From contig CASDPK010000007.1 in assembly GCA_949282555.1 (NCBI GenBank), positions 1 to 64,000 on the forward strand: a stretch of DNA of 64,000 bases, read 5' to 3'. A model generated the notes under the pieces. The model saw nothing but the letters and a program-made list of their open reading frames with translations. It was not told the DNA's origin and searched no databases. The position numbers and the translations under genes were made by a program. The stretch is from an uncultured Lentisphaeraceae bacterium. Lineage in GTDB: Bacteria > Verrucomicrobiota > Kiritimatiellia > RFP12 > DVOR01. Below are positions 56,304-64,000 of this stretch, one piece after another (positions within the stretch are counted from its first letter, which is position 1; every line of letters starts with the position of its first letter).

Positions 56304-57794
56304 TTATCCAAGACGTTCGGTTCGTGTTTTGCCAGATTGCAACGGGGCGCAAGGGGCGTAAACGGCGGCACGACCTGCGGGGGCGGCTACGCTAAGCAAG
56401 CCCAGCACATAGTCTTTCGCGGCGACAATGGCATCGGGAAGCGCGTCGCCCAGCGCCAATCGTGCGGCGATGGCGGAGGAAAGGGCACACCCTGTGCCGT
56501 GCGTTGTGAGGGGGCTGGGGATTGTCGGCGATTCAAAAAACCATGTCCCGGAGGCGGAAGCGAGGATATCGGCAGAGGGGCGCTCCTTTGCGTGTCCACC
56601 TTTTACCAAGACGGCGACACCCAGCATTGCGTGGAGGCGTTGGGCGAGTGAGATTTGGCCATCAAGCGTGTGGATGGGGGATTCATCGTCCAACAAGGCT
56701 TGGGCCTCAGGCAGGTTGGGCGTGATCAATGTGGCCTTGGGCAGAAGGCGCTCACGCAAGATCTTTACGGCGTCACTGTCGAGGAGGCGTGCTCCACTGG
56801 TGGCCACCATCACGGGGTCGATGACCCATGGGCAGGAGAATTGAGGCAAAATGTCGGCGACAACGGCAATGTGTGGCGCATCCACCAGCATTCCGGTTTT
56901 GACGGCCCCCACCGTGAAGTCTTCCGCGATGCGCTCCAATTGTCCGCGCAGAATCTCCGGAGTGGCGGGCATGATGCCGCTGACGCCGTGCGGATTCTGT
57001 GCGGTGAGGGCGGTGATCGCGCTGCAACCATGGACACCGAAATCACGGAAGGCGCGCAGATCGGCCTGAATGCCCGCGCCACCGCCACTGTCGCTCCCGG
57101 CGATGGTGAGGGCGACGGGAACCCTTTTCCTCTGCGAAAATGACAGGGACTCCGCGGTGGGGAGATGGGGAAGCGGCACACCCAAAAGGTGTTGGCCGGC
57201 CGCGACAAACACCGTCTGCCCCGTGACGGAAGGCGTGGTGAGCAAGAAGGAAACGGCGGCGTGCAGATCCGCAAGGGTGGGGCGCGGCGTGAGGCATTCC
57301 CCTGCCTTTTCGCTGTGTTCCCGATGGGGAGGGGGAAGGACGGGCCCAGGGGCAATGGCATTGAGCCGCGTTCCCGTGGAACGGCCCCAGACCACCGCCG
57401 TGCGTTCGACCCATTCTGCGAGGGCGCGCTTGGCCGCCATGTAGGCGTGAATGGTCGCGGGAAGGGCCGCTTCCGCCCAATGGACGCGTGCATCCAAAAA
57501 GAGGATGAGGTGGGCTTTGGGCTGGGTGCGATGCAGGGCTTCGGCCAAACGGATGGGCCCTTTCGCGTTTGCTTGGAGCATCCGTTCGGGAGCCGCATTC
57601 AACTCAAACAATCCTGGAAGGATGAGCGCGGCATCGCAGGTGACACCGTCCAACGCGGATTCCGGAGCGAAGTCGTCGGAAAGGAAATCCCCATAATCCT
57701 TGCGGGAGAGGAGAATCACCTCGTGGCCGTCTCGTTCCAGCAACGGAAACAAGGCGGCCCCGATGCGCCCGGGGCCGAAGAGTGCGATACGCAT
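56304..57794 (-). CDS. Fusion of a short-chain dehydrogenase and HMP(-P) kinase ThiD
   Basis: A single 496-residue chain has two enzymes. Residues 1-220 are an SDR with the nucleotide-binding GPGRIGAAL, catalytic Y118-x3-K122, LNAIAPGPV and a C-terminal GQTVFVAAGQHL, most like FolM-type pterin reductases. Residues from about 225 are ThiD: AGSDSGGGAGIQADL, VKTGML, DPVMVATSG, and the phosphate-binding THGTGC motif. ThiD phosphorylates hydroxymethylpyrimidine for thiamine synthesis. Pterin or pyrimidine chemistry could link the halves, but this is inference. The ATG at 57794 is chosen because the frame upstream runs through infC. The gene lies 7 bp after infC. Confidence 0.87.
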   Translation of the reverse strand: MRIALFGPGRIGAALFPLLERDGHEVILLSRKDYGDFLSDDFAPESALDGVTCDAALILPGLFELNAAPERMLQANAKGPIRLAEALHRTQPKAHLILFLDARVHWAEAALPATIHAYMAAKRALAEWVERTAVVWGRSTGTRLNAIAPGPVLPPPHREHSEKAGECLTPRPTLADLHAAVSFLLTTPSVTGQTVFVAAGQHLLGVPLPHLPTAESLSFSQRKRVPVALTIAGSDSGGGAGIQADLRAFRDFGVHGCSAITALTAQNPHGVSGIMPATPEILRGQLERIAEDFTVGAVKTGMLVDAPHIAVVADILPQFSCPWVIDPVMVATSGARLLDSDAVKILRERLLPKATLITPNLPEAQALLDDESPIHTLDGQISLAQRLHAMLGVAVLVKGGHAKERPSADILASASGTWFFESPTIPSPLTTHGTGCALSSAIAARLALGDALPDAIVAAKDYVLGLLSVAAPAGRAAVYAPCAPLQSGKTRTERLG

Positions 57795-57801
57795 GGGGAA
57801 C

Positions 57802-58509
57802 TCAACGCTGCGTCGGACGAAGGCCGAGGGTGGGCTTCGTCGAAGGCGGTGTTGCGGTGGGAGCCAAGCCAACCGCAGGCTTGGTCGGTGCCAGGCCTGC
57901 GGCAGGGCGTTGCTCTTGGGCGGGAGCCGCGGGCTTTTTCGCGCCACCCTTCGTCGATTTCGGCGCGAGCAGGCAGCTGAGCACACGGCCCATGAGCTTG
58001 GGCGGCTGCTCCACGGACGTCTTTTCCGAGCAGAGCTCGACGACGCGCTCGATAAGCTCGGTTCCGAGTTCGCGGTGCGCATTCTCGCGTCCGCGATACA
58101 TCAGGGAAACTTTGACCTTGTTGCCCTGCTCGATGAACCCGAGGATGTCCTTAACTTTGCGCGTGACATCACCCACGTCTGTGCCGGCATGGAACTTGAT
58201 TTCCTTGACCTGCGTGGACTTGGCGTTCTTGCGTGCCTGTTTCTGCCGGATGCTCTCCTCGTAACGGAACTTGCCGTAATCCATGATCTTGCAGACGGGC
58301 GGCTGTGCGGAGGGCGTGATTTCCACAAGGTCGAGGCCTTGGGCCTCGGCAAGGCTTTGGGCCTTGCGAGTGGGCATCACGCCGAGCATCTTGCCTTCGG
58401 CGTCAACCACGCGCACCTCGGGTACGCGGATCTTGAAGTTGGTACGGACGAACGAGGCGGTCTTGCGATCGTTGCGTTCCGGGCGGGGGCTGGGGGGAGG
58501 AAGTGCCAA
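57802..58509 (-). CDS. infC: Translation initiation factor IF-3 with TTG start and C-terminal extension
   Basis: The protein binds the 30S subunit and checks initiator tRNA and start codon. The family core is plain: TARKAQSLAE-type N-domain with APSAQPPVCKIMDYGKFRYE, and C-domain with KEIKFHAGTDVGDVTRKV and LLAPK. The start is a TTG at 58509 with AGGAG 7 nt upstream; there is no ATG or GTG in a usable position before the first conserved block. Rare infC start codons are known (AUU in E. coli) and allow IF-3 to repress its own translation. After the core, 60 residues carry three AGLAPT-like repeats. rpmI and rplT, normally next, are absent. Confidence 0.93.
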   Translation of the reverse strand: MALPPPSPRPERNDRKTASFVRTNFKIRVPEVRVVDAEGKMLGVMPTRKAQSLAEAQGLDLVEITPSAQPPVCKIMDYGKFRYEESIRQKQARKNAKSTQVKEIKFHAGTDVGDVTRKVKDILGFIEQGNKVKVSLMYRGRENAHRELGTELIERVVELCSEKTSVEQPPKLMGRVLSCLLAPKSTKGGAKKPAAPAQEQRPAAGLAPTKPAVGLAPTATPPSTKPTLGLRPTQR

Positions 58510-60366: not shown

Positions 60367-61758
60367 ATGATCACGACGCATGCCGAAGGTGTGGTGTTCA
60401 CCGGCATCAGTGGGTGCTTTGGCGGAGCACCGACGCCGAAGGCGCTGTGGAAGGCTATTCTGCGGCGTCAGAGTTTCTTTGTCCCCCGCAGCGAGGCCGC
60501 CGGTGTCGCCGCAACGGAAGTTTCGTTTGCCGGACATGAGTTGCCGGAGGTCTGCGCGGCGTTGGGGGAGCGCTTCGCTTGCCGGACGGATCACATTCCA
60601 TTGCCGCCGGATTTGGGTATCGGCGACAATCCCGACTTTTGGTTCGGTGCACAATTGCTGCACGATGCGTTGCTGGATGCAGGATTGCCCCCGGAGAATC
60701 GGCCAACGGATCGTATGGCGCTCTTTGTGGGATATGAGCCTGCATTTAATCCGGCGGCGGTGAATTGGTTGTGGCACGCATCAGTGATTGGTCAAGTGAT
60801 GAGCACGCTCCAACGGTTTTTCCCTGGGGCTTCGTATGCTCGGATGGAAGCGGTGCGCACGGAGCTGGCGGATACGTTGCCATTGCTGAAGCGTCGGCAG
60901 CTGGAGATGGCTCGCGGTGAAGGTGTGGTGCGTGGGTTGGCACAGGCGTTTGGCGCCTGCGATACGGCATGTTTATGCACGGCAGGTGAAGCCTCGGTGT
61001 TCGCGGGGCTGGATGCCGCGGCGAATGCCCTGCGAATGGGACAATGCGACGTGGCTGCGGTGTTGGTGCTCCAGCCCCCGATATCGCAGGCCCAACTCTT
61101 GGGAGAGGCGGCTCTGATGCCTTTTTCCAGTGCTCGCGAGTTGTTGCCCTTTACCGAGCGCTCCTCGGGAACGTTGCCGGGCGAGGGAGGCGCGGCCTTT
61201 GTTTTGCGACGTGCGGGCGATGTTCGTGCACAGGGTGGGCATGTTTATGCCGGCCTTCATGGGTGTGCGTTGGTTTCCGGATTGGAACCCGAGGAGGGCG
61301 GATTGACGGAAAGTCTCCGCCGGGCATTGCATCGGGCGCTTCGGCGTTTGCCCAATGGATTCCGTGACATCGATTATTGGGAGATGAACGCTTCTGGTAT
61401 TCCGGCGGAGGATGCCGCGGAGGAAACGCTTCTTAACCGTATGACGGCCAACCGTGGGGCACACATCCCCCTGCTGGCGGTCGGCTCGGCTAAGACTTCG
61501 TTCGGCCATACGCTCACGGCGGCAGGGGCATTGGGCGTGCTTAAGGGCATATTGTCGGTGAGTCACTGTGTGCTTCCACCCTCGGTAACGCCGGTGGATG
61601 ACAGTTTCCGCCTGCGAGAGCCGGAACAGTCTTACTATTGGGTGCAACAGGCCCGACCTTGGATTGCCTCTTCCATGCGTCCGCGACGTTTGGCGGTTTC
61701 TACGCTGGCCGCTTCCGGTCGTGCGGGGGCCGTCGTGCTTGAGGAGGCCGAACAATGA
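60367..61758 (+). CDS. Beta-ketoacyl synthase-like protein with an altered active site
   Basis: The 463-residue thiolase-fold protein belongs to the KS group used in type I fatty acid, PUFA and polyketide synthases. The nucleophile C202 is present in CDTAC. The second His is kept as H381 in SAKTSFGH. The first catalytic His, in the normal HGTGT motif, is Asn here (EMNASGIP, N341). Condensation would be impaired or altered, as in chain-length-factor-like or decarboxylating KS domains. The reading frame stays open for 2.6 kb upstream, but that part is antisense to thrS/infC. The stop overlaps the next ATG as ATGA. Confidence 0.85.
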   Translation: MITTHAEGVVFTGISGCFGGAPTPKALWKAILRRQSFFVPRSEAAGVAATEVSFAGHELPEVCAALGERFACRTDHIPLPPDLGIGDNPDFWFGAQLLHDALLDAGLPPENRPTDRMALFVGYEPAFNPAAVNWLWHASVIGQVMSTLQRFFPGASYARMEAVRTELADTLPLLKRRQLEMARGEGVVRGLAQAFGACDTACLCTAGEASVFAGLDAAANALRMGQCDVAAVLVLQPPISQAQLLGEAALMPFSSARELLPFTERSSGTLPGEGGAAFVLRRAGDVRAQGGHVYAGLHGCALVSGLEPEEGGLTESLRRALHRALRRLPNGFRDIDYWEMNASGIPAEDAAEETLLNRMTANRGAHIPLLAVGSAKTSFGHTLTAAGALGVLKGILSVSHCVLPPSVTPVDDSFRLREPEQSYYWVQQARPWIASSMRPRRLAVSTLAASGRAGAVVLEEAEQ

Positions 61759-64000
61759 GCCTTGGACGTTCGGAGGGGGTGCTTTGTCTCATTGGTGCGG
61801 ACTCGCTCGTCTCGCTGAGTACGGAGATTGAGCGGATGCTTCGTTTCCTCGAGCACAGTTCGGGGTTGCGGCTCATTGATGTGGTCTATACGGCCACGTG
61901 TGACGCTCGAGGGAAACCGTGTGTGGCTGGGATTTGGGTGTCGTCCCTTGATGAGATGCACCGGCGGTTGCGTTTCGCGCTCGATGCTTTGCGCAGCGGC
62001 CGCACGCGGATGCGTGATAAGGCGGGTGTCTTTTTCACAACGCAACCTTTGGCATTGGCGGGTGGAAAAGTGGCATTTGTCTTTCCGGGAACGGGAAGTT
62101 TTCACCTTGAGATGATGCGCGACTTGGCGCTGACCTTCGATGGTGTCCGCCAACGTTTTGATGACATGGAGGAGGCTTTCGCCGGATTCTGCGATGTCGC
62201 TTCTCCTTCGGAGTGGCTCTTTTCCACGGCACCGGAACACACGCTTCCGCTGAGTGCCTCGCGTGCGTTTCTGCCGCTCTTGGCGTCCGCCTCGACGTAC
62301 CTGGCCAGCAAGGTGTTCGCTGATCTTCTGAAATCGGTTGGCGTCCGTCCCGATGCGGTGGGCGGTGTTGGGCTGGGGGCTTTTTCGGCCTTTCATGCCA
62401 CCCATCACGACCCTAAAATGCGGTTGGTGCAAATCTTGCGTGATGCGGGACGAATGCTGTTGCGGTTGGGAGCCGAGGCGCAAGGGCCTTGGATTCAGCT
62501 CACGGTTTCCGGCATTGCCACGGAGAAATTGCGGGAATTGGCATTGCGCGATCCTGCGCGTGTCATTGTGGCACAGTGCCTCGCCGAGGATGAATGCGTG
62601 TTGGCTGTGGCTCCGGAAAAACAGGCAGAGGCGGAAGTGGCCATTCACAACGGCGGAGGGCTTTCGGTAGCGGAGCCGTTGGTGGCACCCTTCAACACCG
62701 GGCACGGCGGAGAGCGAATGCGCCGTCAGTTGGAGCGCTTTTTTGATAAATGGGTGACCTGTGAACCGCAGGTGCCGTTTTATTCCTGCGTCACCGGGGC
62801 TCCGATGGGGCGCTCCACGTCTTCGGTGGTGAGGGCGCTCACGGATCAGATGATGGTGCCGCTTGATTTCCGAAAGATGATTCTCGGAATGTACGAAGGC
62901 GGTTGTCGCCTTTTCGTGGAGGTCGGGGCACGAGGGTTGCTTTCTCCAATCATCACGAAGATTCTGTCGGAATGTTCGGAACCAACGGCTGTGATTCCCA
63001 TGCACATTCTCCATCGCTCGGGAGGCGTTCAGGTGGGGCAAGCGTTGGGACTGTTGGCGGCAAACGGCGTTCCTATCGACTATTCCGGGCTCCGGTTCTT
63101 TGATCATGCCAACCGGCTCGACTTTGGGTTTCCTGTCGCGGAGGAGGGAGCCGCTACGCTGACCCTTCGCCTTTCGCGAGAGCTCCCGGCTTTGCGGCCA
63201 GAGTTGCTGGATGCCCATCGTCTGTTGGGTGCGGAAGAGGTCTTTGCGGGTGATGCCCCAGACCTTACGCATTTGCATACGATCCCGGCGGCTATCCCAA
63301 CGGGCGGACTTTTTGAGCCGTTGTTGCAGAGCGCACAGGAGATTGCGCGAGAGCCGGGCCATTTGTTGGATCTCCGATGTACGCTTCGGTTGGAAGATTT
63401 CCCCTATCTCAATGATTATGCCATTGGGACCACGGGTGTTTCACTCAGCAATCCGCAAATGCGCGGGCTTACGCTGTTTTCCGTGCCGACAGGATTGGAA
63501 CTGATGGCTGAGGCGGCACGCCGACTTTTCCCGGATCTTGTCCTTCGGCGGATTGAACATCTGCGGGCATCTCGCTGGTTGTCGTTTGATTTCGGCAAGC
63601 TGACGCTTCGTGTCACGGCAGAGACGATCGATGAACAGGAGGACGGAACGCGCCTCGTGCGTGTGCGGTTGTGCGCCACCGCCTCGGAGGATGGGGCGGA
63701 TCATCCCGTCATGGAGGCCCACTATCAACTGGGGAAGGTCGTTCCTGAACCGCCGGACTGTGAAGAGCCGCCGTTGGCGAACCCTCGATTGGTCAACTGG
63801 GAGGCGCGCGACATTTATCCCGCACGTCTCTTCCAAGGCCCTCTTCTGCGTAACGTTCGCAAGGTGTTCGGCTGGGGGTTGAATGGGCTTGACTATGAGG
63901 TTCGCATTCCCTCTCGAACTGCGGTTGTTCGGGCTTCGCGAAACCCCTTGTTCTCGGCCATGCCGCTCTTGCTTGACGCAGTGGTCTCAGGGTTTCCGCT
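61755..64000 (+). CDS. Acyltransferase- and dehydratase-like type I synthase protein (partial, runs off the window)
   Basis: At least 748 residues are open to the window end. Residues 1-100 resemble the KS-to-AT linker of modular synthases. An AT domain begins with VFPGTGSFH near residue 110 and ends with FVEVGARGLLSP near residue 395. Where active ATs have GHSxG, this protein reads GLGAF (G206-F210), so the Ser nucleophile is missing. From about residue 530 a hot-dog DH-like domain begins (EDFPYLNDYAIG), in which the expected catalytic His of the HxxxGxxxxP motif is Phe. The arrangement recalls PfaA/PfaC-type PUFA or secondary lipid synthases. Product and downstream genes lie outside the window. 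Confidence 0.75.
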   Translation, partial: MSLGRSEGVLCLIGADSLVSLSTEIERMLRFLEHSSGLRLIDVVYTATCDARGKPCVAGIWVSSLDEMHRRLRFALDALRSGRTRMRDKAGVFFTTQPLALAGGKVAFVFPGTGSFHLEMMRDLALTFDGVRQRFDDMEEAFAGFCDVASPSEWLFSTAPEHTLPLSASRAFLPLLASASTYLASKVFADLLKSVGVRPDAVGGVGLGAFSAFHATHHDPKMRLVQILRDAGRMLLRLGAEAQGPWIQLTVSGIATEKLRELALRDPARVIVAQCLAEDECVLAVAPEKQAEAEVAIHNGGGLSVAEPLVAPFNTGHGGERMRRQLERFFDKWVTCEPQVPFYSCVTGAPMGRSTSSVVRALTDQMMVPLDFRKMILGMYEGGCRLFVEVGARGLLSPIITKILSECSEPTAVIPMHILHRSGGVQVGQALGLLAANGVPIDYSGLRFFDHANRLDFGFPVAEEGAATLTLRLSRELPALRPELLDAHRLLGAEEVFAGDAPDLTHLHTIPAAIPTGGLFEPLLQSAQEIAREPGHLLDLRCTLRLEDFPYLNDYAIGTTGVSLSNPQMRGLTLFSVPTGLELMAEAARRLFPDLVLRRIEHLRASRWLSFDFGKLTLRVTAETIDEQEDGTRLVRVRLCATASEDGADHPVMEAHYQLGKVVPEPPDCEEPPLANPRLVNWEARDIYPARLFQGPLLRNVRKVFGWGLNGLDYEVRIPSRTAVVRASRNPLFSAMPLLLDAVVSGFP

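Follow-up and report, generated by a model that had tools for sequence, protein, structure and literature searches.

A degraded type I lipid-synthase gene pair as the probable sole holo-acyl carrier protein synthase in an order of Kiritimatiellae

The analysed window comprises bases 1 to 64,000 of the 87,898-base contig C7, from the genome (2.43 Mb, 94% complete) of an uncultured Lentisphaeraceae bacterium. Its distal end carries two genes, encoding a stand-alone ketosynthase-like (KS) protein and a protein with acyltransferase (AT), dehydratase (DH) and 4'-phosphopantetheinyl transferase (PPTase) domains. The pair is probably the remnant of a polyunsaturated fatty acid (PUFA) or secondary-lipid synthase, retained as the cell's sole holo-acyl carrier protein (holo-ACP) synthase, with the KS, AT and DH domains kept by selection as a non-catalytic scaffold. 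The surviving catalysis would be that of the predicted Sfp-type PPTase domain at the C-terminus of the second protein; it would transfer 4'-phosphopantetheine from coenzyme A to apo-AcpP of type II fatty acid synthesis and would also serve the cell's few other carrier proteins. The genomes compared are metagenome-assembled genomes (MAGs), and the conclusions rest on sequence throughout, namely on the domain content of the pair, the losses at its active sites, the invariance of the PPTase motifs, the lack of any other detectable PPTase and the presence of intact relatives near a megasynthase. A search of open-licence papers returned no description of this arrangement in Kiritimatiellae. The close relatives by sequence are Kiritimatiellae MAGs, several of them from animal guts, including Candidatus Spyradenecus faecavium.

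Active sites of the KS and AT-DH-PPTase proteins

The KS reading frame matches the N- and C-terminal Ketoacyl-synt domains of Pfam (E 3e-13 and 6e-17), and Asn replaces the His of its HGTGT motif, the latter as described in the first-pass annotation of this DNA. That annotation also took Cys202 for a retained nucleophile, which was a misreading. When the KS is aligned without gaps to relatives whose catalytic residues are complete (nucleophile motifs SAACASS in L067, DAACASS in G121 and DGACASS in G083), Cys202 lies six residues N-terminal of the nucleophile column, and the aligned residue is Glu208. This column holds Cys in 9/9 KS domains from outside the order and Glu in 8/8 aligned members of the genus; column 202 is Tyr or Phe in the nine outside domains and Ser in some genus members. 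The alignment and this variability within the genus rule out Cys202 as the nucleophile. An AlphaFold2 (AF2) model of the KS, of low confidence, is consistent with the Glu208 reading, with a strand at residues 198–203 and a helix from 207. His381, reported earlier as kept, is present in the window's KS and replaced by Asn in some of its congeners (Table 1). The catalytic Cys-His-His triad is accordingly represented by Glu208, Asn341 and His381.

The acyltransferase and dehydratase sites are likewise incomplete. The GHSxG motif of the AT-like domain has lost its Ser, and Asn314 stands at the position of the catalytic His; in the DH-like domain, the His of the His/Asp dyad is Tyr555, with Asp741 retained. 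The Gly in place of Ser and the missing His had both been recognised correctly, and so had the adjacency and translational coupling of the two genes. Since the nucleophile column holds Glu208 and not Cys202, the KS, AT and DH domains all look dead. Known variant ketosynthases do not accommodate these residues: a KSQ loading decarboxylase (Gln nucleophile, both His kept) is ruled out by Glu208 and Asn341, a KS0 non-elongating domain (Cys kept, HGTGT His lost) by the Glu in the nucleophile column and the misaligned Cys202, and a chain-length factor does not fit the active-site residues. Among the specialised functions proposed earlier, a scaffold role may hold, but a decarboxylating or chain-length function of the KS is unsupported, given the Glu at the nucleophile position in the genus and the various residues found there in related families.

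The second gene extends 1045 bases beyond the window end on the same contig, and the intact PPTase escaped the first-pass annotation because the window ends before this domain. The C-terminus of the protein is a 4'-phosphopantetheinyl transferase by its PF01648 match (aa 978–1060, E 5e-16). It carries the Sfp-type motif GxDxE ... WxxKExxxK and has the two-half Sfp-type architecture (~230 aa), the halves being matched separately by the AcpS model in fused genes such as those of G031, G018 and G014.

Table 1. Features of the gene pair in window coordinates, unless a contig is named.
Feature	Position	Strand	Basis or remark
Stand-alone ketosynthase-like protein, 463 aa, inactivated triad (pseudo-KS)	60367..61758	+	Pfam KS N/C
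Cys202 (in DTAC), nucleophile of the first-pass annotation; outside the nucleophile column	60970..60972	+	Alignment
Glu208, position of the KS nucleophile Cys	60988..60990	+	Alignment with intact relatives
Asn341, replacing the HGTGT His	61387..61389	+	Alignment
His381, GH motif; Asn in 3 genus members	61507..61509	+	Alignment
ATGA stop/start overlap of the two genes, 4 bases (translational coupling)	61755..61758	+	
AT-DH-PPTase gene, 1096 aa, running past the window to C7 65045	61755..64000	+	L003:1755-5045
AT-like domain, aa 104-445	62064..63089	+	Acyl_transf_1 below cutoff; PKS AT structures by sequence
AT nucleophile Ser replaced by Gly206 (GHSxG reads GVGLG)	62370-62372	+	
AT catalytic His position, Asn314	62694-62696	+	
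DH-like double-hotdog domain, ~aa 530-850, extending beyond the window	63342..64000	+	PS-DH E 1.5e-6
DH catalytic His replaced by Tyr555	63417-63419	+	
DH Asp741, retained	63975-63977	+	
PPTase domain, ~aa 870-1096, outside the window	C7:64362-65042	+	PF01648

Across the order, the sites have fared very differently (n = 26 for KS and n = 27 for AT, DH and PPTase, the G212 row being left out). The PPTase residues R909, K913, K942, H963, D981, E983, W1020, E1024 and K1028 are identical in 27/27 members, so that the N-half residues (the first four) are as invariant as the C-terminal motif. The KS triad is complete in 4/26 (L051, L052, L054 and L067), the AT Ser-His dyad in 5/27 (L054–L058) and the DH His is present in none of the 27. 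The replacements differ from family to family: the nucleophile column holds G, A, L, I, M, V, T, S or C in the order's other families, the HGTGT His is Asn in the window's KS, Asp in part of family f3 and His elsewhere, the AT Ser position is G or A, and the DH His position is Y, F, S or C.

Such variation is as expected for lost rather than altered catalysis, and it bears on the possibility that the pair is a working specialised synthase with altered chemistry, i.e. a decarboxylase, chain-length factor or acyl-transfer module that makes an unusual lipid with an ACP in trans and the reductases of type II fatty acid synthase (FAS). The strong purifying selection estimated for all domains (see below) and the extra ACPs of the genome would suit such an enzyme; Glu208, Asn341 and AT Gly206 are fixed in the aligned genus members, so there is no obvious drift, and pseudo-KS domains without Cys occur in known systems, e.g. 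PfaB of Type B (PMC3098273). However, no partner with ACP, ketoreductase (KR) or enoyl reductase (ER) domains lies beside the pair. The megasynthase of the intact relatives is missing, since the only other KS in the genome is FabF-type and lies on another contig, and the recurrent linkage of the pair is to panB, not to lipid genes. A synthase with altered chemistry is thus regarded as unlikely.

The fused PPTase and the carrier proteins of the genome

The window's genome has a single PF01648 match, the fused gene, and exactly one match was found in 44 of the 48 sampled genomes of the order outside family f4 (the window's genome counted). The AcpS model TIGR00516 scored above cutoff in 0/40 genomes, and its search of the window's genome matched only the fused gene; PF01648 itself recovers a PPTase in 10/14 control genomes and 225/240 genomes of the class. 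Family f4, which is without the KS/AT-DH-PPTase pair, has a stand-alone Sfp-type PPTase. On contig C4, near a fabD-like AT, the window's genome encodes a canonical AcpP (DSLDQVEL); it has three further ACPs, and all of these proteins are encoded on contigs other than that of the pair. A PPTase is therefore needed, and the fused domain is the sole candidate seen. These genomes seem to have no holo-ACP synthase other than this domain, which would have replaced a stand-alone PPTase and is presumably essential.

Two loci of this genome, both read by eye, may supply further targets of the PPTase: an AMP-ligase-like open reading frame (ORF) beside an ACP, a ferredoxin-type protein and a glycosyltransferase at C2:115.5-119 kb (L136), and an ACP pair at C3:33.8-35.3 kb (L135). 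Large ORFs (1163–2527 aa) resembling polyketide synthases (PKS) or nonribosomal peptide synthetases lie near an additional PPTase of their own in G022 (C87 and C176) and G023 (C15), where the relic pair is also present.

Sfp-type PPTases often belong to secondary metabolism, and three non-FAS ACPs are present here, as would be expected if the fused domain mainly served the small C2 and C3 clusters and an unrecognised enzyme activated AcpP. Against this stand the AcpS search, which returned the fused gene alone, and the ability of PF01648 to detect PPTases in the control and class genomes. There is also a known parallel. Legionella has a single Sfp-type PPTase and no AcpS, and this enzyme has been proposed to activate the FAS ACP too, with Pseudomonas aeruginosa cited as precedent (PMC5126622). 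A separate activator of AcpP is hence very improbable. The likeness to these bacteria lies in one Sfp-type PPTase per genome and the absence of AcpS; the enzymes described there are monomers of ~240 aa, whereas the PPTase of the window's genome forms the C-terminal end of a 1096-aa pseudo-synthase accompanied by a conserved pseudo-KS.

In fungal type I FAS, a C-terminal PPTase domain activates the ACP of the active synthase to which it belongs. The window's protein resembles this FAS in the fusion of a PPTase to a protein of fatty-acid-synthase type. Here, however, both proteins are without ACP and their synthase domains look dead; the PPTase must therefore have a target that acts in trans.

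Origin from a lipid synthase and retention of the pseudo-domains

Other Kiritimatiellae families contain homologs whose sites are intact, as a class-wide search revealed. The AT, DH and PPTase residues are intact in G083 and G112, as are those of the KS in G083, and both genomes have a second, stand-alone PPTase. G083 encodes, besides KS and AT-DH-PPTase, a 2535-aa ER-KS-AT-ACP-KR protein ~6 kb from the latter, and G134 a 2725-aa ER-KS-AT-ACP-KR-DH protein and a KS-AT protein; in both, this megasynthase, which begins with a nitronate monooxygenase-like (NMO)/ER domain, lies in the same region as the homologs. Related KS-AT-ACP(-KR) proteins are found on other contigs of G112 and G121, and an ER-KS-AT-ACP-KR-type protein is encoded close to several of the homologs or elsewhere in their genomes. 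In an ORF of G212, the DH has its His and the PPTase is intact. G121 and G069 keep the stand-alone PPTase and have a degraded fused PPTase together with intact KS/AT/DH residues, which, judged by these residues, is a decay reciprocal to that in the window's order. In another family of the phylum (G344), L154:6503-10575 encodes an AT-DH-PPTase protein of 1262 aa whose motifs are intact, and an ACP gene comes directly after it; this locus looks like an active version of the system.

The KS tree groups the order, L067 and the intact forms together. The tree and the homologs in G083, G112, G121 and G069 support common descent with a PUFA/secondary-lipid synthase, and the best reading is that the pair derives from a type I synthase of this PUFA-like kind, in line with the type I lipid or polyketide synthase origin suggested at first. 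The PPTase tree has long branches and is poorly resolved in parts; it is compatible with one or more origins of the fused PPTase. The simplest order of events would start from an ancestor with both a stand-alone PPTase and the lipid synthase; in the window's order, the stand-alone enzyme and the megasynthase would have been lost and the fused PPTase would have taken over, after which the remaining KS/AT/DH active sites would have decayed repeatedly.

The intact Kiritimatiellae relatives have the same kinds of domains as the PUFA/secondary-lipid synthases (pfaABCDE) of the Types of Shulse and Allen (PMC3098273), arranged as an ER(NMO)-KS-AT-ACP-KR(-DH) megasynthase plus KS plus AT-DH-PPTase. 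A PPTase inside pfaC has been reported for Pseudoalteromonas sp. DS-12. Unlike these synthases, the window's locus has no ACP/KR/ER-bearing partner, its KS, AT and DH are degraded and the PPTase is the one domain whose motifs are retained. Enediyne-type iterative PKS have the domain order KS-AT-ACP-KR-DH-PPTase and, as in the PKS-derived second protein, a C-terminal PPTase comes after the DH. In the window's pair, in contrast, the KS is encoded by a gene of its own, neither ACP nor KR is present and the active sites are lost.

The ratio of nonsynonymous to synonymous substitution rates (dN/dS) is ~0.01–0.10 for KS, AT, DH and PPTase alike in close pairs (L036/L045, L037/L046). These values indicate strong purifying selection on all four domains, and thus selection on the pseudo-domains. 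Were the pair a decaying remnant kept solely for its PPTase, with KS, AT and DH as neutral passengers, the repeated and differing loss of active sites in related lineages would be accounted for, but the low dN/dS of every domain would not. The AT-DH-PPTase protein is, moreover, full length in all families examined, and the pseudo-KS, a separate gene free to be lost, is still kept at the loci inspected, even in G037, where it lies on a contig other than that of the PPTase gene. Neutral carriage of these domains is consequently quite improbable.

The favoured scaffold would act through ancestral surfaces. The KS and AT are ACP-binding domains in known synthases, and for this reason the KS/AT/DH scaffold would probably hold the PPTase in a complex and dock the ACP, the KS probably forming a complex with the AT-DH-PPTase protein. 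A more tentative extension, short of probable, is a pseudo-enzyme platform in which the dead KS/AT/DH complex captures AcpP and couples phosphopantetheinylation to fatty-acid demand, as an obligatory multi-subunit holo-ACP synthase. Such a platform might, with the same reserve, be unlike any known stand-alone PPTase.

Conservation and surroundings of the locus

The second protein was found in 15/16 other genomes of the genus searched and in most sampled genomes of families f2, f3, f5 and f6; it was absent from the f4 genomes searched. The KS lies directly upstream of the AT-DH-PPTase gene in 25 of the 26 relatives examined, G037 being the exception; the unlinked pseudo-KS of this genome (L156:1598-3004, on G037:C117) has Asn in the nucleophile column (ADGSG). 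Recurrence of the site-degraded pair in the genus and four further families, with the KS nearly always adjoining, goes beyond chance.

Directly upstream of the KS, in places overlapping it or a few bases away, lies panB in seven relatives from f2, f3 and f5 (L049, L051, L052, L053, L056, L057 and L058); PF02548 identified the gene in three scanned relatives (E ≤ 1e-106), and the others were read from sequence or matched to those. The panB–KS pair is a predicted operon joining the PPTase with the pantothenate pathway, which leads to the PPTase's own substrate. Neighbours other than panB show no broad conservation among relatives.

Downstream of the window's pair lie genes for an MTA/SAH (methylthioadenosine/S-adenosylhomocysteine) nucleosidase, a hypothetical protein, an rmlD-like protein and a GH84 glycosidase. 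The active modules anticipated beyond 64 kb did not appear: Pfam and NCBIfam scans to ~79.6 kb of the 87.9-kb contig gave no ACP, KR, ER or further KS, and no ACP with KR in the same cluster was found among the neighbouring genes. What the sequence past 64 kb did add was the PPTase domain of the second gene. Two ORFs of the contig are of separate interest. One, of 351 aa (L003:18538-19593; C7:78538-79593), is siroheme decarboxylase-like with AhbA- and AhbB-like halves and suggests an alternative haem route; the other, of 592 aa (window 56304-58082, minus strand), seemingly combines, by eye, an epimerase/dehydrogenase-like half with an HMP-P (hydroxymethylpyrimidine phosphate)-kinase (ThiD)-like half.

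Several points weigh against the scaffolded PPTase as set out here. KS catalytic residues are kept in L051, L052, L054 and L067 and those of the AT in L054–L058, so residual KS or AT activity is possible in these members; L054 keeps both sets, and residual acyl transfer is therefore possible in some lineages. An extra PPTase match occurs in four genomes of the order (G017, G022, G023 and G053), and the panB of the window's own genome lies on another contig. The finding of an only PPTase comes from MAGs that are mostly 85–97% complete, though a second PPTase is missing repeatedly across the order. The AF2 models of the two proteins are of low confidence (mean pLDDT, the predicted local distance difference test, 46 and 54); their Foldseek matches are KS-AT-DH and KS proteins, consistent with the families, and carry little weight.

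A discarded specialised synthase seems to have become housekeeping equipment. If so, a fragment of a secondary-metabolite megasynthase would have taken over an essential step of primary metabolism, and the reciprocal decay in sister lineages would reveal which domain each lineage needs. In genome mining, KS/AT genes of this kind can pass for active biosynthetic clusters, and the pair would offer a natural test of pseudo-enzyme retention.

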